Positions 7,855 to 63,580 of a DNA stretch of 64,000 nucleotides are shown here, piece by piece. Position 1 is the stretch's first letter. The number at the start of each line of letters is the position of its first letter. The notes beneath the pieces were generated by a model. The model searched no databases. It worked only from the letters and a program-made list of their open reading frames with translations, and was not told the DNA's origin. A program made the translations under genes and the position numbers. The DNA comes from Thiobacillus sp. GTDB taxonomy: Bacteria; Pseudomonadota; Gammaproteobacteria; Burkholderiales; Thiobacillaceae. The stretch spans positions 1 to 64,000 of the forward strand of contig JAIBEI010000020.1 of the NCBI GenBank assembly GCA_019459055.1, written 5' to 3'.

Positions 7855-8229
7855 ATGGAACCCAAAGCTCAACCCCTGAAGCGCTGCGGCTGCAACAATC
7901 CAACCGAGAAATGCGCGGATCTGGCGCGCACCGTCAAACCCGCCAAGGTCGATCCCGACGCCACGCTGGTATTCGACGTGCGCCGCGAAGCCGACTACGC
8001 GGCGTCCAACGAAACCATCCCCGGCGCGCTGTGGAAGAACCCCGAAAAGATCGACGCCTGGATCGGTGCCCTCCCGCGAACGCTCGACGTGGTGATCTAC
8101 TGCGTACGCGGCGGCGCCGTGTCGAACAGTGTGGTCGATCGCCTACAGGCCGCGGGCGTGAAAGCGCGCTATATCGAAGGCGGTCTCGAAGCCTACAAGG
8201 CCGCAGGCGGCAAAATTTCCCGCAAATGA
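7855..8229 (+). CDS. Rhodanese-domain protein
   Basis: A 124-aa single-domain rhodanese (sulfurtransferase fold). The CDC25-like segment LVFDVRREADYAASNETIPGA is at residues about 38-58 and the active-site loop is CVRGGAVS with Cys83, so it can probably carry a persulfide. The N-terminus has an extra Cys-rich tract (CGCNNPTEKC, residues 11-20). It lies 96 bp upstream of a TusE/DsrC-like gene, and rhodaneses often pass sulfur to TusA/DsrE/DsrC-type carriers, so a joint sulfur-relay role is plausible. No signal peptide is visible. Confidence 0.85.
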   Translation: MEPKAQPLKRCGCNNPTEKCADLARTVKPAKVDPDATLVFDVRREADYAASNETIPGALWKNPEKIDAWIGALPRTLDVVIYCVRGGAVSNSVVDRLQAAGVKARYIEGGLEAYKAAGGKISRK

Positions 8230-8325
8230 TTCTCAATAACCACTCTAGCTAAATGGTTGACTAATTTAGTTGGTTATTCTATGGTTCGCCCATCGCATTT
8301 TTTACTACACGCAAGGACGACAATC

Positions 8326-8658
8326 ATGGAACGTGAAATCAACGGCAGAATGGTCGAAACCGACCCCGAAGGCTATCTGGTCAACCTGGAAGACTGGTCC
8401 GAAGAACTGGCCGTCGAACTGGCCAAGGAAGACAAGCTGGAACTGGGCGAAAACCACTGGAAGATCATCCGCTACATGCGCGACTTCTTTGCCCAGAACG
8501 GCACCGCGCCCAACCTGCGCTTCCTGCAAAAAGGCCTGAAGGAAGAATTCGGCCCGGAATGGGGCGACAAGAAATTCCTGTTCGACCTGTACCCGTTCGG
8601 CCCCGCCAAACAGGCTGGCCGCTACGCCGGCACCCCGAAACCGACCGGCTGCGTGTAA
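8326..8658 (+). CDS. TusE/DsrC-family sulfur-carrier protein (single C-terminal Cys)
   Basis: A 110-aa DsrC/TusE-fold protein. The C-terminal arm ends TPKPTGCV, with the conserved penultimate Cys109 (Cys A). At position 98, eleven residues earlier, where dissimilatory DsrC has its second cysteine (Cys B), this protein has glycine (KQAGRYAG). That pattern is TusE-like, pointing to sulfur transfer for tRNA thiolation or a cytoplasmic sulfur relay rather than sulfite reductase redox chemistry. I chose the ATG at 8326 because the MEREING N-terminus is conserved; an in-frame upstream extension is not. A rhodanese gene lies just upstream and a clear terminator follows. Confidence 0.9.
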   Translation: MEREINGRMVETDPEGYLVNLEDWSEELAVELAKEDKLELGENHWKIIRYMRDFFAQNGTAPNLRFLQKGLKEEFGPEWGDKKFLFDLYPFGPAKQAGRYAGTPKPTGCV

Positions 8659-14668: not shown

Positions 14669-15693
14669 TGATAGATAACCTGCTCCGCGCCGTCGGGGCG
14701 GGCGACGATATCGCCGATGCGCCACACGGTTTCGCCGCTTGCGGTGAGGTGCGCCATTGCCGCTGCGGCGTCGCTTGCGGCCACCACGACGCACAGGCCG
14801 ATGCCGCAGTTGAAGGTGCGCAGCATTTCGGCAGGCTCGACGTTGCCGACCTGCTGCAGCCAGTCGAACAGCGGCGGCTGCGTCCAGCTGGCGAAGTCGA
14901 CGCGCGCGGCGACGCCTTCGGGCAGGCAGCGCGGCAGGTTGCCGGTGATGCCGCCGCCGGTGATGTGCGCCATGCCTTTTACGTTGAGCGTTTCGATCAG
15001 CGCCAAAAGCGGCTTGACGTAAATCCGCGTCGGTTCCATCACGGCGTCGGCAAGCGGACGGCCGTGGAAGTCCGATCCGAGGTCGATGCCGGACACATCG
15101 ATCAGCTTGCGGATCAGCGAATAGCCGTTGGAATGCGCGCCGGAAGACGCCAGGCCCAGCACCACGTCGCCCGCGACGATGTCCTGGCCGCCGATGACTT
15201 TCGATTTTTCCACCACGCCGACGGCGAAGCCGGCCAGGTCGTACTCGCCTTCCGGATACATGCCGGGCATCTCGGCGGTTTCGCCGCCGATCAGCGCGCA
15301 GCCGGCCCGCTCGCAGCCGGTGGCGATGCCGGCGATCACCGCTTCGGCGGTGTCGAGGGTGAGCTTGCCGCAGGCGAAGTAATCGAGGAAGAACAGCGGC
15401 TCGGCGCCCTGCACCAGTATGTCGTTGACGCTCATGGCCACCAGGTCGATGCCGACGGTGTCGTGGCGGTTCAGCTCGAACGCCAGCTTGAGTTTGGTGC
15501 CGACGCCGTCGGTGCCGGAAACCAGCACCGGCTCCCTGAATTTCTTCGAAATCTCGACCAGCGCGCCGAAGCCACCGATCCCCGTCAGCACTTCGGGGCG
15601 CATGGTGCGCCTGGCCAGCGGCTTGATACGCTCGACCAGCGCATCGCCGGCGTCTATATCGACGCCGGCATCTTTATAGGAAATGGATGACAC
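14665..15693 (-). CDS. purM: Phosphoribosylformylglycinamidine cyclo-ligase (AIR synthetase)
   Basis: A 342-aa enzyme that closes the imidazole ring to make AIR. Conserved segments include [45 protein letters not shown] and [14 protein letters not shown] prefer the GTG at 15693 ([10 protein letters not shown]) over the TTG at 15705, because homologues start at this point. It is transcribed with purN and is divergent from the permease gene 41 bp away. Confidence 0.96.
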
Positions 15694-15734
15694 GCCCGGC
15701 TCCAAAATGCAAAAAGTGCGGTATTTTACCGCCT

Positions 15735-16823
15735 ATGTCGACTCCCCGCCCGTTCCACCTCCCCTGGCTCGCGCTCTCCGTGCTGCTCGTCACGGGCGGG
15801 CTGATCTACCTGCTCGGCCCCATTCTCACGCCCTTCCTGGCCGGCGCCCTGCTGGCCTACATCTTCGACCCGCTGGTCGACCGCCTGGAAGCGCACGGCT
15901 GGTCGCGCATGTTTGGAACCGCTGCGGTGATCGTGCTGGCTGGACTCGCCGTCCTTGGCCTGATTCTGATTGCCTTGCCACTGTTTCAAGGCCAAATCGC
16001 CGAACTGAGCCAGCGCCTTCCGGCCTTCCTCGACCTGCTGCAAACCCGCTTCCTGCCCTGGCTGCAGCAGACCTTCGGCATCGCCATCGCCCCCAACCTC
16101 GATGCGCTCAAAAGCTGGATGACCGAACAGGCGACCGAAAATAGCGACAGCTGGCTGCCTTCCCTGCAAACCGGCGCGCTTGCCATCCTGGGCCTGCTGG
16201 TCAACCTGCTGCTGATTCCGGTGGTGATGTTTTACCTGCTGAAGGACTGGGACGTGATGGTGACGCGCGTCGCCACGCTGGTGCCACGCGACTGGATGGC
16301 GGGTGTCACACGCGTGGCACGCGCGATGGACGCGGTGGTCGGCGAATTCATGCGCGGGCAGCTGGCGGTCATGACCATCCTCGCGCTGTACCACGGCATT
16401 GCACTGTGGGTGCTGGGTCTCGACTACGCCCTGCCGATCGGAATTCTCACCGGACTGCTGTCCTTCGTGCCTTTTCTCGGAATCGGCTTGGGCCTGACGC
16501 TGGCCTTGCTGGTGGCGCTGTTGCAGTTTGCCGACTGGAGCGGGGTGGCCTGGGTGGTGGGAATATTCATGGTCGGCCAGCTTTTCGAAGGCTACGTGAT
16601 CACCCCGCGCATCGTCGGTGAACGGGTCGGCCTGCATCCGGTGGCTGTCATCTTCGCGCTGGCCGCATTCGGCCAGCTGTTCGGCTTTGTCGGCGTGCTG
16701 CTGGCGGTGCCGCTGGCGGCGGTGCTGCTGGTGGCGCTGCGCGAACTGCGCGGCGTGTACGAGCAAAGCGACCTTTATCGCGGCGGCTATAATGCCGGCT
16801 CTTCCGATCCTGCCTCGTCTGCC
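15735..16823 (+). CDS. AI-2E/PerM family permease, reading in frame into purC
   Basis: About 363 residues of an AI-2E transporter (PerM/UPF0118) family membrane protein. It has about eight membrane segments and the family region [22 protein letters not shown] followed by [27 protein letters not shown]. The ATG at 15735 fits the family N-terminus. No stop codon separates it from purC: the frame passes through [17 protein letters not shown] straight into the PurC start, giving a potential fusion of about 661 residues. A TATAAT sequence (16788-16793) near the junction might be a purC promoter. The substrate is unknown. Confidence 0.85.
16788..16793 (+). promoter_or_regulatory. Possible -10 box for purC
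   Basis: TATAAT at 16788-16793, 30 bp before the purC ATG and inside the permease 3' end. I see no convincing -35 sequence at the right spacing. Confidence 0.3.
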
Positions 16824-17720
16824 ATGTCCGCACCGCTCCTCGGCCACCCCCTGCTCGAATCGAGCATCGCTTCCTTGCCGCTGATCCATAAGGGCAAAGT
16901 GCGCGACATCTATGCCGTCGGCGACGACAAGCTGCTGATCGTCACCACCGACCGTCTGTCCGCCTTCGACGTGGTGATGCCGACGCCGATTCCCGGCAAG
17001 GGCGAAGTGCTGACGAAGGTATCGGCCTTCTGGTTCGACAAGCTCAAAGCCGTCGTGCCGAGTCAGGCGCTCGACATCGCGCCGGAATCGGTGGTTGCCG
17101 AAAACGAACGCGGCCAGGTGACCGGTCGCGCCATCGTGGTAAGAAAACTCAAGGCGCTGCCGGTCGAGGCCATCGTGCGCGGCTATCTGGTGGGTTCAGG
17201 CTGGAAGGAATACCAGGCCAGCCAGTCGGTATGCGGCATCGCACTGCCGGCCGGGCTGAAACAGGCCGACCGCCTGCCGCAACCGATCTTCACCCCGTCG
17301 ACCAAGGCAGCGGCCGGCGCCCACGACGAAAACATCGCGTTTGAACAAATGGCCGGGCTGATCGGCACCGACCTGGCAAAGCAGGTGCGCGACGTCAGCC
17401 TCGCGCTGTACAAGGCTGCGGCGGAATACGCGCTGACGCGCGGCATCATCATCGCCGACACCAAGTTCGAATTCGGGCTGGATGAAAAAGGGCACCTGGT
17501 GTGGATCGACGAGGCGCTGACCCCGGATTCGTCGCGTTTCTGGCCGGCCGACCAATACCGGCCCGGCAGCAACCCGCCCAGCTTCGACAAGCAGTTCGTG
17601 CGCGACTGGCTGGAAGCGAGCGGCTGGAACAAGCAGGCGCCGGGACCGGAACTGCCCGCGGAAATCGTCGCAAAGACCAGCGAGAAATACCGCGAGGCGA
17701 TGTCGCGCCTGCTGGGATAA
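16824..17720 (+). CDS. purC: Phosphoribosylaminoimidazole-succinocarboxamide synthase (SAICAR synthetase)
   Basis: A 298-aa enzyme joining CAIR and aspartate in purine synthesis, the step after PurE. It starts [20 protein letters not shown] and then has [11 protein letters not shown], followed by conserved [36 protein letters not shown] and [17 protein letters not shown]. The length is normal for the longer bacterial/yeast-like PurC type. It is in the same frame as the upstream permease with no intervening stop codon, so it may be translated separately from this ATG or as a fusion. Confidence 0.95.
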
Positions 17721-27637: not shown

Positions 27638-28980
<1,343 letters not shown>

Positions 28981-29336
28981 TGTCCAAGAAAACCCTGATC
29001 GCCGCCATCGGCACTGCTTTTGTTGCCGGCATGACCGCCGCCCCCCTCGCGTCGGCTGCCGATAACCCCTTCGCCATGCAATCCCTGGACAGGGGCTATA
29101 TGGTTGCCCAGGCTGGAAAAACAGCTGAGGGCAAATGTGGCGCCATGAACAAGGCCAATGAAAACAAATGTGGCGCGGCCATGATGGACGCCGACAACGA
29201 CGGCAATGTGAGCAAGGACGAGTTCATCAAGGCGCACGAAGCCATGTTCGCCAATATGGATGCCAACAAGGATGGCTTGATCGACAAGACCGAAATGGGC
29301 AAGTTGATGCAAGGCAAATGCGGCGGGATGAAATAA
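28981..29336 (+). CDS. Secreted MNIO-associated precursor peptide with KCG motifs and two EF-hands (bufferin/HvfA-like)
   Basis: 118 aa. A signal peptide (residues about 1-26, cleaved near ASA-A) is followed by a short mature protein with exactly three cysteines, each in a KCG context: EGKCG (50-54), ENKCG (61-65) and QGKCG (111-115). Between the second and third are two canonical EF-hand loops ([12 protein letters not shown], 70-81; [12 protein letters not shown], 94-105). It starts the operon with an MNIO enzyme and a DUF2063 partner. In HvfA and bufferin peptides such enzymes modify Cys residues, EGKCG motifs in HvfA, to make copper-binding groups. I infer a copper-binding RiPP, possibly also Ca-binding. 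A good ribosome site precedes it. Confidence 0.8.
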
Positions 29337-29346
29337 GCTGCATTCC

Positions 29347-30198
29347 GTGAACCCCCTGCGCCTTGCCGGTGCGGGGCTGGGGTTCCGGCGCGAACTCATT
29401 CCCGCGCTGAAATCCCGGGTCCCCGACGCCATCGATTTTTTTGAACTCGCTCCGGAAAACTGGATCGACATGGGCGGCGCACATGGCCGCGATCTGCGCG
29501 GCTTCACCGAGCGCTACCCGTTTGTCTGCCACGGCCTGTCGCTGTCGCTCGGCGGGCCTTCCCCGCTCGACGAAATGCTGCTGCACAAAACGCGGCAGTT
29601 CATGGACGCACACGGCATCCAGCTCTACACCGAACACCTGTCGTACTGCTCGGATGACGGGCACCTGTACGACCTGCTGCCGATTCCCTTCACGGAAGAA
29701 GCGGTGAAACACGTCGCCGCGCGCATCCGCCACGCGCAGGACATTCTGGAACGCCGCATCGCGATCGAAAACGCCTCGTACTACACGCCGTCGCCGATTG
29801 CCGATATGGACGAAATCGCGTTCATCCGCGCGGTGCTCATTGAAGCCGACTGCGACCTGCATCTGGACGTCAACAACGTCTACGTCAACAGCGTGAACCA
29901 TTGCTACGACGCGCTCGAATTCATCCGCGCGCTGCCGACCGAACGCATTGTGTACATGCACATGGCCGGGCATTACAACGAGGCCGACGACCTGCTCGTC
30001 GACACCCACGGCGCCGACGTGATCGACCCGGTGTGGGCGCTGCTCGATGCAAGCTACCGCATCCACGGCGTCGCGCCGACGCTGCTGGAACGCGATTTCA
30101 ACATTCCGCCGCTGGATGATCTGGCGCGCGAGGTCGAGCGCATCACGCACATCCAGGCACAGCACCAACGACATGAACACGCCCGCCGCGCTTCCTGA
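29347..30198 (+). CDS. MNIO-family (DUF692) RiPP-modifying enzyme, BufB/HvfB/MbnB-like
   Basis: A 283-aa TIM-barrel multinuclear non-haem iron-dependent oxidase. Likely iron ligands of the family are visible: His62 ([12 protein letters not shown]), Glu96-His97 (YTEHLSYC), Glu141-Asn142, Asp174/Asn176-Asn177 ([11 protein letters not shown]), His205 and His209 ([13 protein letters not shown]), Asp219 and His221 ([13 protein letters not shown]), and Glu248-Arg249-Asp250 (LLERDFNIP). The enzyme oxidises precursor-peptide cysteines, for example to oxazolone/thioamide or thiooxazole groups. The start is GTG, ten bases after the precursor gene, and the 3' end overlaps the partner gene by 26 bases. 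Confidence 0.92.
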
Positions 30199-30940
30199 AT
30201 TCCAGCGTTACCAGCTCGCCTTCACCGCGCACATCCGCGACCCCGCGGCGAATCCGCGACCCGCGGGCGTGGGGGCGCGGCGCATGAAGGTCTACAACGA
30301 ACTGCTCATCAACAACATCGAAGGATTCCTGCTGGCCTGTTTCCCGGTCCTGCGTCAGGTACTGGGCGCGCGCAAATGGGCAAAGCTGGTGCGCGCTTTC
30401 TTCAGCACGCACCGCAGCCGCACGCCCTATTTCCGACAGATTCCTGACGAATTCGTGCAGTTCCTGCAAAGCGAATGGACGCCGCCCGCAGGCGATCCGC
30501 CGTATCTGCTTGCGCTGGCGCATTATGAATGGATCGAGCTGGTATTGTCGGTATCGAACCGCAGCGCGGATCGCGCGTTCGATGCGGCGGGCGATTTGAT
30601 GGCGGGTATGCCACTGCTGAACCCGGTGCTGGCCAACCTGCGCTACGACTGGCCGGTGCAGCGCATCGCGCCACGCCGCAAGGTCGTGCCTGCCGAAACC
30701 TATCTATTGGTGTTTCGCGACGCCGACGACCAGATACAGTTCAGCGAAATCAACGCCTTCACCGCGCGACTGCTGAGCCTGCTGGAACCCGGCACCCTGA
30801 GCGGACGCGCCGCACTGGAACAGATCGCAGCCGAGAGCCGCCATCCAGATCCTGCGATGATCCTGCAAGCCGGCAACGCGCTGCTCGGCGACTTGCGCGC
30901 ACGCGGCGCCATTCTGGGAAGCGGTCAGGGCACGCTGTAG
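30173..30940 (+). CDS. DUF2063 protein, partner of the MNIO enzyme (BufC/HvfC/MbnC-like)
   Basis: A 255-aa protein with an N-terminal DUF2063 helical domain (residues about 8-95: [29 protein letters not shown], then [23 protein letters not shown]) and a C-terminal winged-helix-like half. In characterised systems such partners bind the precursor peptide and present it to the MNIO enzyme. I chose the ATG at 30173 because the longer open frame lies inside the MNIO gene. The 26-base overlap indicates coupled expression. No DoxX gene follows, unlike the four-gene hvf operon. Confidence 0.9.
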
Positions 30941-30994
30941 GAGGCCCGTCCTCGGTCCGAAAAGTGCGCCGCGCGCGGCCGGCGTACCGGCTAT

Positions 30995-31453
30995 TTAATG
31001 GTTATGCTGCATGGGCATGCCGCCGCCCATGGGTGCGCGGGCTTCTGCCTTCACCTCGATGGTCTGCTGCTTGCCGCCCGACTCCACCGTCAGGACCAGC
31101 GGGATGATCTCGCCAGCGGCAATCGGTTTCGCCAGGTTCATCAGCATGATGTGATAGCCGCCGGGTTCGAGCGAAACCGTCTTGCCCTTCGGCAGCTCGA
31201 TCGCCTTCACTTCGCGCATCCGCATCACGTCGCCGTCCATCTTCATTTCATGCACTTCCACCCGCGGCACCGCCGGGCTGGATGCGCTGACGAGTCGCGC
31301 ATCGGCGTCCGAACGGATCTGCATGTAAGCGCCGCTGACCTTTTGCCCCGGCATGGTGGCGCGCGCCCACGCGTCGGTGACGGTGACATTGGCGGCCCAG
31401 GCGGGCAGGGTGGCGGCACTGGCCAGCAACACGGCAGCAACAAGCGTTTTCAT
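30995..31453 (-). CDS. Periplasmic copper chaperone, PCu(A)C family
   Basis: A 152-aa exported protein (signal peptide about 1-20, ending LPAWAA). The PCu(A)C copper-site pattern is present: HEMKMDGDVMRM followed by PGGYHIMLMNL, with the His/Met ligands. The C-terminus ends MGGGMPMQHNH, a second possible Cu-binding tail. The family delivers Cu(I) to cytochrome oxidase CuA or helps copper uptake. It follows the copper-type TonB receptor on the same strand (28 bp) and converges with the RiPP operon. Confidence 0.93.
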   Translation of the reverse strand: MKTLVAAVLLASAATLPAWAANVTVTDAWARATMPGQKVSGAYMQIRSDADARLVSASSPAVPRVEVHEMKMDGDVMRMREVKAIELPKGKTVSLEPGGYHIMLMNLAKPIAAGEIIPLVLTVESGGKQQTIEVKAEARAPMGGGMPMQHNH

Positions 31454-31481
31454 CGGTTTCTCCTCAAAGTAAGTAAAACTA

Positions 31482-33728
31482 TTAGAACTGGACATTGACC
31501 GCAGTGTAGATCGAACGGCCCATGCCGGGAACGGGAACGCCCCACGGAACCCCGGTTCCGGACATGGTCTTGCCCTCGCCGAAGTAGGCGCCGCCCAGTG
31601 GGTGTTCATAGAACCGGTCGAGGACGTTCTCGACGCCGAGATCGAGGCGCACCTGCTTCCACTGGTAGCTGCTGCGCAGGTTCAGCAGGCCGTAGCCGGC
31701 GGTTTCCATTTCGTTGCGGACATCGGAGACGTCATCCTTGGCGTCCACCAGAACGACCTCGGCGGTATTGGTCCAGTTGCGCAGGCGCTGCACGACAGCC
31801 AGTTTCGCGTTCAGCGGCATGATGTTGTAGAGGTTGTCTTTTTCACCTGAAGCGGTTTCGCCCCTGACGTAATTCAGCATGCCGGTCGCCGTGAAGCTGC
31901 CGTAACGCCCGGTTTTTGCCAGCGGCAGGTGGCCGGAAATGTCGATGCCGTAGAGCTGCGCATCCTGGTTGGCGAACCGCAGATAGACGAACTCCGTATC
32001 GGTGGCCGGCGCGATGATTGGCGTGGCGTTGATGTAATCGTCGACGTACGTGTAGTAGGGCGTGACTTTCACCCCCCATTTTTCCTGGGCGGCGTCATGC
32101 AGGTCGAACGTCGCGCTCAGGGTATGGGCAATTTCCGGTTCCAGTTCGAGGTTGCCGACGTAGCCATTGCCGTCGCCGAACCAGTTGATCATGCGCATCG
32201 CCATGCCGCCGGTCGACCAGGTGTAGCGCTCGTAGAGGTTGGGGGAGCGGGTCTTCCGCGCATAGCCGAATTCGAGGGTCTGTGTTTTGGCTGGCATAAA
32301 GCGGGCCAGCGCGGTCAGGTCGATGTTGTGGTCGGTTTTCTCGCGGTCGGCATTATTGAAGGCAGTCGCGTCGGCCGTGTACGTGGCGTTGTACCCCTGC
32401 ACCACGCCGGCATCCATGTCGACCTTTTCGTAGCGCAAGCCGAACTGCGTCAACCACCGCGGGTTCCATTGCGCTTCCCATTCGCCGAAAGCCGCCAGGC
32501 GGTCGCGCTCGCCGTCGTTGATGTTCCAGAACACGTTGGGCGCCATCCCCTTTCCGGCCGGATCCCACCAGTCGTCCAGCCGGTACTGCTGGACTTCGCC
32601 GCCGACGCGGAGCAGGTCGCGCGCCGACAGCGGAATGTCTGCCTTGACGACTGCGCCGGTGTTCTTCCCTTCGGTGTCCATGGGCATACCTGCCGCACAA
32701 CCGTCCGTTCCCGCACTGGGAATGCAAGACGAGTCGCCATCGGCATAGGGGTCGCCGTCGTTGGAGCCGTACCAGTAAAGCTTGTCATCGAAGAACTGCA
32801 TCTTGTGGCGCGTATTTTCATGATAGGCCCGCGCTTCCAGCTTGCCCCAGTCGTATTGCCCCTCGTAGCCCAGGTTGAGCTGCTTGCTGTCGTTGCCGGT
32901 CATGTCCATGCGCTGGTTGGGCCAGCCCTGGTAGGGAATGTCCTGCAGGCCCAGTTTCAGTTCGACCAGATGATTTTCATGGCGCGCGGCCAGGGCGATC
33001 GACTGGTTGGTCGACTTGTACATGCTGGAGCCGACTTCGTCGGCATCGACGATGTGCCCGTCATCGGCGTCGATGTAGGTCGACTTGAAATTGTCGCCGG
33101 CATGGTAATTGTCGGCCTTCACCGTCGAGCCGCTGTAGGTCACGCTCACCTTTTCGCTGGCGATCGTCGCCGACAGGTTGCCGCCGCGGGCGTCGCCGTT
33201 GCTGCGGTAGAACACGCCGGCCTCGCCCTTCGTCAATACGCCTTCGCCCGCCTTCGCGAACGCCGGCGCGGCCGAATCCACCAGGATCGTGCCGCCGATG
33301 CTGTCGCCACCCGAACTCACCGGCGCGAGCCCGGCAAAAACCGTGACGGCGTCGACGCTGGTCGGGTCGATATACGAGAGCGGCGGGTTCATGTGGTTAC
33401 CGCACGCCGAGACCAGGTCCATGCCGTCGACCTTGATGCGCAGGCGGTCGTCCGCCAGGCCGTGGATCGCGGGCAGGCTGGAAACGCCGCCGGAGCCGTA
33501 TAGGCTCACGCCGGGGACGTCCCTGAGGAGGCTCGCCGAATCGCTGGTCGCGGGCCGCAAGGACTGCACGTTTTCCACCTCAACGCCGAACGGCACGACG
33601 GCTTCCGGCGTGCCGGTCACCACAATCGTCATCAGGGGGGAGGCGTCTTCCGCGCTGGCCGTGACAGGCAACAGGCTGGCGGCAATTAGCAAAGGCAGCA
33701 GGCGGGGAACGAAAGCAGGCGTTTTCAT
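31482..33728 (-). CDS. TonB-dependent copper receptor, OprC/NosA type
   Basis: A 748-aa outer-membrane receptor: signal peptide (about 1-26), TonB-box region (TIVVTGTPE), plug domain and 22-strand barrel ending in Phe (TAVNVQF). The plug has VSACGNHMNPPLSYIDP, the hallmark of OprC/NosA. Cys109 and Met113 form CxxxM, and His308-Lys-Met310 form HxM, matching the Cu ligands reported for OprC. I therefore call it a copper importer rather than a siderophore receptor. It is transcribed with the PCu(A)C chaperone. Confidence 0.92.
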   Translation of the reverse strand: MKTPAFVPRLLPLLIAASLLPVTASAEDASPLMTIVVTGTPEAVVPFGVEVENVQSLRPATSDSASLLRDVPGVSLYGSGGVSSLPAIHGLADDRLRIKVDGMDLVSACGNHMNPPLSYIDPTSVDAVTVFAGLAPVSSGGDSIGGTILVDSAAPAFAKAGEGVLTKGEAGVFYRSNGDARGGNLSATIASEKVSVTYSGSTVKADNYHAGDNFKSTYIDADDGHIVDADEVGSSMYKSTNQSIALAARHENHLVELKLGLQDIPYQGWPNQRMDMTGNDSKQLNLGYEGQYDWGKLEARAYHENTRHKMQFFDDKLYWYGSNDGDPYADGDSSCIPSAGTDGCAAGMPMDTEGKNTGAVVKADIPLSARDLLRVGGEVQQYRLDDWWDPAGKGMAPNVFWNINDGERDRLAAFGEWEAQWNPRWLTQFGLRYEKVDMDAGVVQGYNATYTADATAFNNADREKTDHNIDLTALARFMPAKTQTLEFGYARKTRSPNLYERYTWSTGGMAMRMINWFGDGNGYVGNLELEPEIAHTLSATFDLHDAAQEKWGVKVTPYYTYVDDYINATPIIAPATDTEFVYLRFANQDAQLYGIDISGHLPLAKTGRYGSFTATGMLNYVRGETASGEKDNLYNIMPLNAKLAVVQRLRNWTNTAEVVLVDAKDDVSDVRNEMETAGYGLLNLRSSYQWKQVRLDLGVENVLDRFYEHPLGGAYFGEGKTMSGTGVPWGVPVPGMGRSIYTAVNVQF

Positions 33729-36738: not shown

Positions 36739-38895
<2,157 letters not shown>

Positions 38896-38968
38896 CCAAA
38901 GTTAGCCGAAATGTGAAATAATTGCAAGACAAGACCACATCTAACTTATTGATATTCAAGGGTACCGC

Positions 38969-61369: not shown

Positions 61370-63202
61370 TTACTTCGGCGCGTACGCTAACTCGATGAAG
61401 GCAGCGCGACCCTGCGTGTTGTAACCGTGCACCAGCGCGTAATCCTTGTCCAGCAGATTGACCAGTTTGCCACTGAGTTTCCAGTCGCGCACCGGTTTCC
61501 AGCCCAGGTTCAGGTTGAGCACGGCATAGCCGGGCACCTCGACACGGGAAAAGGTCGTGGCATGGACGTCGGGATGCGGCCCCGAAGCCAGCACTTCAGC
61601 GCGCCAGTCGAATGCGCCAGCCTGCCGACCCAACGACAGGCTGCCAAACTGTTCGGCACGACGCAACAAGCCGAGGCCAGTCGTTTTGTCTTCGGGATTC
61701 TGGATGGTCAGTGCACTGCGCACATCCAGCCCGACAAGCTTCCCGCTCCACGAGAGCTCGACACCACGATTTTCCGCCCGGTCGACGTTGGTCGCGGTCC
61801 AGGTTGGTGGGACAAAGTTGATGAGGTCGTGGGTGCGGCTGATGAATGCGGTGGCACGCGCAAGACCGTAGACGCCGCTGTAGGTCAGGCCGAGTTCCGC
61901 ACTCTTTGCGCGCTCCGGATCGAGCGCGGGATTGCTGCCGTACGGTCCATAGAGCTCGTTGAACGTGGGTGCGCGGAATGCGTTCGACACGCTTGCCTGC
62001 AGGCGCAGTGCCGGGGTCAGCCGATAGCCATACCCCAGCAGGCCGGTGGTGGCGCCGCCAAAATCACTGTAGTCGTCGTGCCGCACGTTCAGTTGCAGGT
62101 CATGTGCACCGATGGCTGTCGTGTAGCCCGCGGTGAGGCTGGACACCCTCCGCGCATCGTCGCTGTAGGCGGCATCGGTATCGAGCTGCTGCCACAATCC
62201 CTCCACCCCCAGGCGGACAAGGCCCTGCCCCACGTTCAGCGCGTTGTTCCAGCCAAGCTGGCGATTGCGGGTTTTGAAGCGATCGGTCGCGAGGCCGTTC
62301 AGGTCTGAGCGCAAGTCATCCGTTCCGTGCGAGAGCTGTACGCGGCTGTGCCAGCTCTGCGTGATCTGGTTCTCGCTAAATACGCTCAGCGAAGTCAGCG
62401 TCTGATCACTGTGATTCTGGTAGGCACCGTCGTATTCGATATCGCCGCGCGACCGGAAAGCGGTCAGGCCGATCTCATGCCCGGCCTGGATGCGGTGCGA
62501 CAGCGCCAGATTCAGCGTGGTGTTGCGGTAACCGTCGTCATCGATATCTTCGGGGGCGAACGTATACGGCGTCGGGACGAACTCGTTGCGCACGCTGGAA
62601 AATCCGTCTGTTCGGGTGCGTGCCGCGCCGAAGCGCACGCGGCTATCCCCCAGTTCGCCGCCGATGGACAGGGCGAGCTTGCGATAATTGTCTGGCCCCG
62701 CCGCCGCGCTGCCCGAGACCTTCATGTCGCCCTGGCCGCGCCGGGTGAAAATCTGCACCACCCCGCCGATCGCTTCGGAGCCGTACACGCTCGACACGTT
62801 GCCGCGCACGATTTCGATGCGCTCGATTTCGTCGAGCAGGATCTGGTCGATGGCCGTCGCGCCGGTGGTCACCGAGTTGACGCGCACGCCATCGATCAGC
62901 ACCAGCACATGGTCGGATTCCGATCCGCGAATGCGGATCGCAGTTTGTGCGCCGAGGCCGCCGGTCGGGGCGATTTCCACCCCGGATTCCTGGCGCAGCA
63001 GGGTAGACAGATCGGAAGCAGTGGACGATTCGATGTCTGTTCGCGTGATGACGCTGGTGTGTTGTAGCGGGGCAGCCAGTTTTTGCGAAGCGCGCGTCGG
63101 CGTCACAACAATGGTTTCGCCGACAAATTCCGGCAGGGTTTCCGCATGGGCGGGCGAAATGAAAGCCGCGCCCAGGGCAAGCGCGAGAGGGATTTGACGC
63201 AT
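61370..63202 (-). CDS. btuB: TonB-dependent vitamin B12 receptor
   Basis: A 610-aa outer-membrane receptor. It has a signal peptide (about 1-20, ending PAHA), a TonB box (ETIVVTPTRA), a plug domain (VLVLIDGVRVNSVTTGATAI, IEIVRGNVSSVYGSEAIGGVVQIFT) and a beta-barrel ending FIELAYAPK. The B12 assignment rests on the cobalamin riboswitch upstream and the downstream cobO, together with BtuB-like plug sequence. It imports cobalamin across the outer membrane. Confidence 0.92.
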   Translation of the reverse strand: MRQIPLALALGAAFISPAHAETLPEFVGETIVVTPTRASQKLAAPLQHTSVITRTDIESSTASDLSTLLRQESGVEIAPTGGLGAQTAIRIRGSESDHVLVLIDGVRVNSVTTGATAIDQILLDEIERIEIVRGNVSSVYGSEAIGGVVQIFTRRGQGDMKVSGSAAAGPDNYRKLALSIGGELGDSRVRFGAARTRTDGFSSVRNEFVPTPYTFAPEDIDDDGYRNTTLNLALSHRIQAGHEIGLTAFRSRGDIEYDGAYQNHSDQTLTSLSVFSENQITQSWHSRVQLSHGTDDLRSDLNGLATDRFKTRNRQLGWNNALNVGQGLVRLGVEGLWQQLDTDAAYSDDARRVSSLTAGYTTAIGAHDLQLNVRHDDYSDFGGATTGLLGYGYRLTPALRLQASVSNAFRAPTFNELYGPYGSNPALDPERAKSAELGLTYSGVYGLARATAFISRTHDLINFVPPTWTATNVDRAENRGVELSWSGKLVGLDVRSALTIQNPEDKTTGLGLLRRAEQFGSLSLGRQAGAFDWRAEVLASGPHPDVHATTFSRVEVPGYAVLNLNLGWKPVRDWKLSGKLVNLLDKDYALVHGYNTQGRAAFIELAYAPK

Positions 63203-63274
63203 GATGAGTTTCCAGTTTGGCCGCCCGCTTCCCCGCAGGCGCGTTGCACGATCCGCTGAATGACTTTCGTCGCC

Positions 63275-63455
63275 CAGGGCTCAGGCCGGTATCCGGGCTC
63301 GCGCTTGAAGTGCATCGCCTTCCCGGGCGAACCCAGTGACTGTGTGATGAACCGTTTAGCGCTTACCGTTGCGGGGGCAGCACAGGCATGGCAGCGAATC
63401 GCCGCGCACCTGTTTCCCGTTTATCCTCGGCGGCGGAAAGCCGCGTCGGCACCTG
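63275..63455 (-). ncRNA. Cobalamin riboswitch
   Basis: On the minus strand the core contains the B12 box (GCTGCCCCCGCAACGGTAAG), GGTGCCGACGCGGC at the 5' side, GGGAAACAGGTG and CACTGGG-like and GGGAAGGCGATG segments. It lies about 70 bp upstream of btuB and is expected to repress btuB, probably with cobO, when cobalamin is plentiful. Confidence 0.93.
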
Positions 63456-63580
63456 AAGCCGCGCATTATAACCACCGAATCGCCCGATTGACCGCCCGCG
63501 CATCGCCCCCTGCGGAAGGGTCGCTGCGCAGCAGCGGGGCACCTGCCGGCGTACCCCTTGCGGGTGCTATAGTCCCGCTC

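Follow-up and report, generated by a model that had tools for sequence, protein, structure and literature searches.

What does a bacterium make from a precursor protein in which a pair of EF-hand loops lies among cysteine motifs of the kind found in modified copper-binding peptides? This question is raised by a locus of Thiobacillus sp. (NCBI GenBank assembly GCA_019459055.1, contig JAIBEI010000020.1, positions 1 to 64,000 of the forward strand; this whole stretch of 64,000 nucleotides (nt) is hereafter called the window). A preliminary description had read the locus as a copper-linked operon for a ribosomally synthesized and post-translationally modified peptide (RiPP) with an MNIO enzyme, and the precursor domain, the MNIO, and its partner all exceeded the respective NCBIfam cut-offs. 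We consider it likely that this is an HvfA/HvfB/HvfC-type (captophorin/oxazolin) RiPP operon for a modified copper-binding peptide, with an EF-hand pair within its KCG array. The product is probably a chemically modified, copper-binding secreted peptide. The architecture is of a known kind, to which the present work adds a few comparative facts.

The precursor gene

The gene and its parts are as follows.

28980..29336, forward strand: precursor gene (open reading frame (ORF) of 118 amino acids (aa); signal-like start, NPF..GY segment, and KCG motifs around an EF-hand pair)
29127..29141, forward strand: EGKCG motif, residues 50-54 (Cys53), read from the sequence
29160..29174, forward strand: ENKCG motif, residues 61-65 (Cys64), read from the sequence
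29187..29222, forward strand: EF-hand loop 1, residues 70-81 (Pfam EF-hand_5 match)
29259..29294, forward strand: EF-hand loop 2, residues 94-105 (Pfam EF-hand_5 match), starting 24 residues past the start of loop 1
29310..29324, forward strand: QGKCG motif, residues 111-115 (Cys114), C-terminal to the EF-hand pair, read from the sequence

The ORF and the Pfam search bore out the earlier account of a signal-like protein with three cysteines (residues 53, 64, and 114), each in a K-C-G context, and with both EF-hand loops between the second and the third. The gene also occupies the precursor position assigned to it before, with a start one base earlier (ATG at 28980, not 28981). The N-terminus, read by eye, comprises a charged start, a hydrophobic run, and the residues ASA-A. 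Side-chain ligand positions 1, 3, 5, 9, and 12 are occupied in both loops, and the protein matches Pfam EF-hand_5 (PF13202) over two stretches (E = 1.9e-10, 40.1 bits, cut-off 25.9) as well as the NCBIfam HvfA-domain model KCGExKCG_twice (NF050137; 25.1 bits, cut-off 19.5). The two PF13202 stretches and the KCG motifs place it with the Buf_EGKCG/EF-hand_5 chimeras, an assignment made from these features. AlphaFold, supplied with a 12-row alignment (A1), produced only two helices (residues 79-93 and 103-111) at low confidence (mean predicted local distance difference test (pLDDT) 49, predicted template modeling score (pTM) 0.23). The whole genome holds one MNIO and one precursor match; a genome-wide codon-pattern search for K-C-G was uninformative, giving 134 + 113 matches versus 170 + 143 in the reversed control.

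Predicted modification enzymes

Two enzyme genes adjoin the precursor.

29347..30198, forward strand: MNIO, HvfB family (NF003818, 432 bits, cut-off 360; PDB 3bww, E = 1.3e-78)
30173..30940, forward strand: MNIO partner, HvfC family (DUF2063, PME1; NF050145, 281 bits, cut-off 142; PDB 3dee, E = 3e-18)

The MNIO (DUF692) and the overlapping DUF2063 partner were thus recognized correctly before, and both NCBIfam cut-offs, for the HvfB maturase and the HvfC partner, are exceeded. The MNIO also matches Pfam PF05114 (341 bits, cut-off 25). Its start lies 10 nt from the precursor stop, and its gene overlaps that of the partner by 26 nt. The order precursor-MNIO-partner is far beyond chance, because it is recurrent in relatives. 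The MNIO contains the motifs FRRE (R14, R15) and ERDF (D250, F251), at places like those of Arg15, Arg16, Asp249, and Phe250 of FonB, which the available portion of PMC12668002 reports for Lys-Cys MNIOs; this likeness is one of motifs.

The bufferins Buf1 and Buf2 share the MNIO and the DUF2063 partner with this operon, and their reported periplasmic copper chelation resembles the role predicted here. Seven Pfam families appear at E values up to 0.1, and the Buf1 domain DUF2282 is not one of them. A bufferin maturase (BufB) was rejected as an identity for the MNIO (252.7 bits, NF050167 cut-off 310).

Copper neighborhood

Two genes on the opposite strand converge on the operon.

30995..31453, reverse strand: PCu(A)C copper chaperone (PF04314, 133 bits, cut-off 29.4; H-X10-M-X21-H-X-M at residues 68-103)
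31482..33728, reverse strand: TonB-dependent receptor, OprC-like (OprC PDB 6fok, E = 3.4e-19, CxxxM aligned)

Here, H-X10-M-X21-H-X-M is taken as the PCu(A)C motif, and CxxxM and HxM are taken as the copper-site motifs of OprC. All six PDB sequences matching the receptor at E <= 0.001 are OprC (best 3.4e-19). Residues C109-M113 (CxxxM) are aligned to OprC; H308-K-M310 (HxM) is read from the sequence of the window receptor. The protein scores below the cut-off of every NCBIfam receptor model (copper TIGR01778, 117.7 of 472 bits; hemin TIGR01785, 139.4 of 317 bits), and its 'OprC-type' label is suggested by the PDB match and the motifs. Of the converging copper genes proposed in the preliminary description, the chaperone stands, while the receptor keeps its OprC match and motifs but stays below every NCBIfam cut-off.

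A PCu(A)C gene lies 3' of the partner gene in each of the 11 distinct genus-type loci whose flank is long enough (L032, L034-L037, L041-L043, L045, L047, and L050; five with EF-hand precursors and six without), that of L034 being only 44% identical. A receptor relative is found nearby in eight of the same 11 loci, and in the alignment of receptor relatives over 450 aa, HxM is present in seven of seven and CxxxM in five of the five that hold that part. EF-hand precursors have no distinct neighbors: the same copper genes accompany EF and non-EF loci. Nitrosospira locus L038 showed neither a PCu(A)C relative nor a receptor relative. With conserved synteny, the PCu(A)C motif, and CxxxM/HxM in the receptor, the copper link of the locus is stronger than first noted.

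Relation to known systems

According to the available portion of PMC12668002, HvfABC-type products carry 5-thiooxazoles, with a loss of 4 Da per Lys-Cys motif, and bind copper. The HvfABC oxazolin and the captophorins (fontiphorin and gonophorin) treated there share with the window the HvfB/HvfC families, the KCG sites, and the FRRE and ERDF motifs, whereas in the window the KCG sites number only three, do not form tandem 5-mers, and enclose an EF-hand pair. By analogy with these characterized homologues, cysteine thiooxazoles, export, periplasmic Cu(I) binding, and Ca2+ binding may be expected. The precursor would be synthesized with a Sec-like signal, HvfB (MNIO) and HvfC (PME1) would convert the KCG cysteines into 5-thiooxazoles (-4 Da each) prior to export, and the modified peptide would capture Cu(I) in the periplasm, beside the copper-type receptor and the PCu(A)C chaperone. 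Within the KCG array, the EF-hand pair would be a Cys-free calcium-binding module that may be gained, lost, or exchanged while the signal peptide and the enzymes remain constant. Most likely, on weaker grounds than the copper part, the pair folds on Ca2+ and spaces or presents the modified arms; a coupling between Ca2+ and copper is speculative.

Whether EF-hand precursors had been described before was a question left by the preliminary description, and they have: chimeric EF-hand/EGKCG precursors of MNIO enzymes are already in print (PMC12452194). In the available portion of that source, these chimeras, like the window precursor, combine an EGKCG segment with two EF-hand_5 domains and are tied to MNIO genes. 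Their EF-hands are placed C-terminal to a short EGKCG domain, whereas in the window a KCG motif also follows the EF-hand pair. One sentence there links MNIO copper peptides with EF-hand sensors, and our literature search found EF-hand joined with HvfA, with thiooxazole, or with MNIO/precursor/DUF692 only in PMC12452194.

A second line of work concerns EfhP (PA4107) of Pseudomonas aeruginosa, whose gene likely forms an operon with DUF692 and DUF2063 genes, as was reported in 2014 (PMC4053335, in the available text); our literature search found EfhP together with DUF692 in four papers, two of them PMC8692599 and PMC8719888. EfhP is described, within the text available, as an EF-hand Ca2+ sensor with an affinity of 13.7 uM and a structural change on binding (PMC9132961), and as mediating Ca2+ responses (PMC4053335, PMC9132961). 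So far as these sources extend, it shares with the window precursor two EF-hand loops, an N-terminal membrane or signal segment, and the DUF692/DUF2063 gene neighbors, but its loops are spaced 27 residues start to start (from the stated positions) versus 24 in the window, and it has been studied as a Ca2+ sensor, not as a RiPP. The main text of PMC9132961 contains neither 'DUF692' nor 'copper', and that of PMC12668002 neither 'EF-hand' nor 'EfhP'.

The EfhP work raises the alternative that the product is chiefly an EfhP-like calcium sensor, in which the KCG modification tunes or anchors the protein and does not serve copper storage. The position of efhP beside DUF692/DUF2063 genes and the Ca2+ responses attributed to EfhP in the portions of those papers at hand speak for it; but the copper chaperone, together with the copper-type receptor in eight of 11 loci, neighbors EF and non-EF loci alike, and we regard this alternative as unlikely.

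EF-hand/KCG chimeras among relatives

We compared 22 chimeras that combine KCG motifs with EF-hands (10 genus-type, four Nitrosospira, one Moraxellaceae, and seven from a survey of the class). The survey covered MNIOs over the HvfB cut-off, which occur in 118 of 370 class genomes, and comprised 123 loci besides the window. EF-hand + KCG precursors are found in at least seven of these 123 loci, a lower bound because some loci start near a contig end and the EF pattern misses degenerate loops. Twelve of the 19 named relatives are called Thiobacillus or Hydrogenophilales, and a precursor match is present in 24 of the 35 genomes of the window's genus, several of the matches being identical to named loci.

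None of the 22 chimeras has a cysteine within or between its EF-hand loops. A new observation is that cysteines stand on both sides of the EF-hand pair in 19 of the 22, the C-side cysteine being in a strict K-C-G context in 18; it is lacking in L157 and in the second of the two copies that Nitrosospira L038 and L039 each carry. The survey subset alone (six of seven) offers a fairer count, since the search for the other chimeras started from similarity to the window. Loop starts are 24 residues apart in 18 chimeras and 26-27 in four. Ligands are highly conserved, partly by construction, as the chimeras were chosen with a loop pattern (loop 1: D1 in 21, D5 in 22, and E12 in 22; loop 2: D1, G6, and E12 in 22 each). 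Independent of that selection is the median ratio of nonsynonymous to synonymous substitution rates (dN/dS) of the EF segment, 0.25 (51 of 55 pairs computable, 11 loci).

In Nitrosospira (L038:3947-4936 and L039:164-1151), two EF-hand precursors stand in tandem, the second with a single cysteine, in an RCG context, before the EF-hand pair.

The loops themselves bear on whether the EF-hands bind lanthanides in the manner of lanmodulin. At E <= 0.001 the only PDB matches are lanmodulin 6mi5 and 8fns (named EF-hand domain-containing protein), and 6mi5 aligns gap-free across both loops, which indicates equal loop spacing. Proline at loop position 2, which we take to be the mark of lanmodulin, is nevertheless absent from all 22 chimeras; both PQQ_2 matches of the genome fall in one BamB-like ORF, and no pyrroloquinoline quinone (PQQ) methanol dehydrogenase was seen in that search. 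Lanthanide binding is very improbable indeed. Membership in the lanmodulin family was rejected (NCBIfam NF053806, 28.2 bits, cut-off 135).

Two precursor types at one locus

At the same site beside argB, related enzymes in the genus follow either an EF-hand chimera or a repeat-only EGKCG precursor. This alternation at one syntenic locus before the same enzymes is a second new observation. MNIO identity to the window's enzyme is mostly 80-91% in the genus-type loci (72% in L034), the signal peptides are alike, and related MNIO/partner pairs serve both kinds of precursor. An MNIO protein tree of 153 rows, 20 of them labeled EF, requires 12 changes of that label, and starred branches force at least five of these; in this tree, support is weak for 68 of the 150 inner branches, and row L120 has an extreme branch. 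A tree of 29 DNA rows requires four changes of the label, of which the starred branches alone force one; because these rows were chosen by hand and the bootstrap is unsettled, the claim of alternation is carried by the approximately unbiased (AU) test, which rejects a single clade of the nine genus EF rows versus the 17 repeat-only rows (AU p 0.00015). EF labels were assigned first by pattern, with L032 (A at loop position 1) and the edge-cut L003 added by hand; identical copies, edge-cut rows, L171 (short, with an internal stop), L024/L050 (broken), and loci lacking an MNIO stand outside the trees.

The window precursor itself appears to be a mosaic, which is a third new observation. Its MNIO falls among those of repeat-only loci, nearest to L018; the 75 nt 5' of the precursor ATG are also nearest to L018 (93%), and the signal peptide to L020/L018 (88%). 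The next 51 nt (the NPF..GY segment) are nearest to EF types (L009 86%, L039 82%, L006 80%, and L038/L034 76%; L018 69%). These sequences are most simply read as an exchange of the mature core, although the stretches are too short for proof.

Two loci have irregular arrangements at this site. L033:3243-4396 (= locus L003) holds a repeat-only and an EF-hand precursor in tandem before a single MNIO, possibly an intermediate of core exchange, and L050:2722-3847 (= L024), in which the precursor runs off-frame after the first KCG-like motif and the MNIO is in two frames, is decaying or misassembled.

The interchange also bears on what the EF-hand pair would do. To one account we give somewhat less than an even chance: the pair would be a calcium-filled structural spacer, or a solubility or protease shield, with no sensing and with copper binding independent of Ca2+. 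That EF and repeat-only precursors stand in for one another at a single locus, next to related enzymes and unchanged copper neighbors, implies that the shared role does not require the pair. Moreover, at the affinity given for EfhP in the text available, such loops would stay almost constantly filled at mM calcium, which favors a structural role over sensing. Against this, the ligand positions are kept (partly by construction), the dN/dS of the EF segment is low, and EfhP is reported, in the accessible part of PMC9132961, to change structure and to act as a Ca2+ sensor. Because the Cys-free pair sits between KCG arms, a calcium-gated copper clamp may also be imagined, in which Ca2+ would fold the middle so that thiooxazoles on the N- and C-terminal sides (or of two chains) form one Cu(I) site, the core being a swappable cassette, with the signal peptide fixed and one promiscuous HvfB/HvfC pair serving it. 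We think this quite unlikely.

Upstream region and a broken sigma/anti-sigma pair

The region 5' of the precursor contains four pieces that align with L018 (85-93%) and a hairpin.

28482-28607: remnant piece aligning with L018
28644..28835, forward strand: remnant with the 3' end of an extracytoplasmic function (ECF) sigma gene and the 5' part of an anti-sigma gene (86% to L018)
28837..28888, forward strand: remnant, internal anti-sigma piece (87% to L018)
28882..28985, forward strand: last part of the anti-sigma remnant, with the leader and the ribosome-binding site (93% to L018)
28923..28938, forward strand: hairpin GCCGGA-TTCG-TCCGGT with a T run after it, 41 nt 5' of the ATG; putative element

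Of 28 distinct genus-type loci, the window counted, 26 have genes for an ECF sigma factor (about 188 aa) and an anti-sigma factor (about 85 aa) 5' of the precursor; Pfam models (Sigma70_r2/r4_2 and zf-HC2) were applied to L018 and L037, and the other loci were assigned by BLAST to L018. The two loci without an intact pair are the window and L006. It is a fourth new observation that the pair typical of the genus is a broken remnant in the window (28644-28888), which the preliminary description had overlooked. About 0.5 kb has been lost with most of the sigma gene, and the anti-sigma gene is interrupted by internal deletions; a genome search with the L018 sigma factor found 26 codons here at 88% and, beyond these, three remote matches (24-35%). 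Across the 123 loci of the wider survey, BLAST detected a relative of the L018-type sigma factor upstream in five, none of which is an EF locus; other sigma families would escape this search.

These losses speak for an operon that is decaying in this genome and is no longer expressed, as does the high precursor dN/dS with L018 (0.64 over 91 aligned codons), a value to be read with the fact that the two cores are not of the same kind. However, the reading frames are intact, and the dN/dS between the window and L018 is 0.136 for the MNIO (0.15-0.21 in four sigma-bearing relative pairs) and 0.129 for the partner (0.13-0.25 in such pairs), a constraint like that in the relatives. The enzymes remain under purifying selection despite the loss of the switch, and decay is distinctly improbable. 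As the enzymes are constrained although the sigma pair is broken, the operon seems to be in use under other control, or the loss is recent; with the ECF sigma/anti-sigma pair broken in cis, metal induction of the operon cannot be assumed.

Of 27 loci, 23 have a similar hairpin; it stands 35-50 nt 5' of the ATG in 22 of them and at 23 nt in L034, counts obtained without a shuffle control. Paired changes occur among loci (GCCGGA/TCCGGC and GCCGAC/GTCGGC), and the element is possibly a terminator, an attenuator, or an mRNA-stabilizing structure. A promoter and terminator scan of 28500-31100 did not rise above shuffled sequences (one promoter-like match, shuffle mean 0.7; one terminator-like match, shuffle mean 3.3).

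Assessment of the proposed function

Several points weigh against an HvfABC-type operon for a copper-binding peptide. The precursor scores only 13.9 bits with the full-length HvfA equivalog NF050188 (cut-off 95); this is hardly surprising for a chimera with an EF-hand insert, and the protein is filed as an HvfA-domain chimera, not as HvfA. There are three KCG sites only, unlike the 5-residue repeats on which FonBC acted, where, in the portion of PMC12668002 available, a one-repeat peptide was left unmodified; by analogy, the lone C-terminal KCG may remain unmodified. The receptor scores higher with the hemin model than with the copper model, both below cut-off. With its cis regulator broken, the operon may be either constitutive or not expressed at all. 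No homologue with both copper and Ca2+ measured appears in the literature examined. The reading draws on genes, sequence comparison, and homologues, so that modification, metal binding, and expression of the peptide are predictions.

Other features of the window

Elsewhere in the window, 15687-17717 is a single open frame with AI-2E transporter and SAICAR synthetase domains, a natural fusion or the result of a lost stop. A thiamine pyrophosphate (TPP) riboswitch (38790-38896, reverse strand) precedes ORF 36739-38703, which presumably encodes ThiC, and a cobalamin riboswitch (63267-63471, reverse strand) precedes a TonB receptor gene (61373-63202). A DsrC-like protein (8281-8655) adjoins a rhodanese-like protein (7855-8226), which would fit a sulfur oxidizer.

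Implications

The locus joins two lines of research, that on copper peptides made by MNIOs and that on EF-hand calcium sensors of bacteria, EfhP among them. The genus-wide switch between EF-hand and repeat-only cores is a natural comparison, which makes the contribution of EF-hands to a copper peptide testable. If the calcium-gated clamp were true, copper capture would be tuned by calcium, and the EF-hand and repeat-only peptides would be alternative cores of the same machine.

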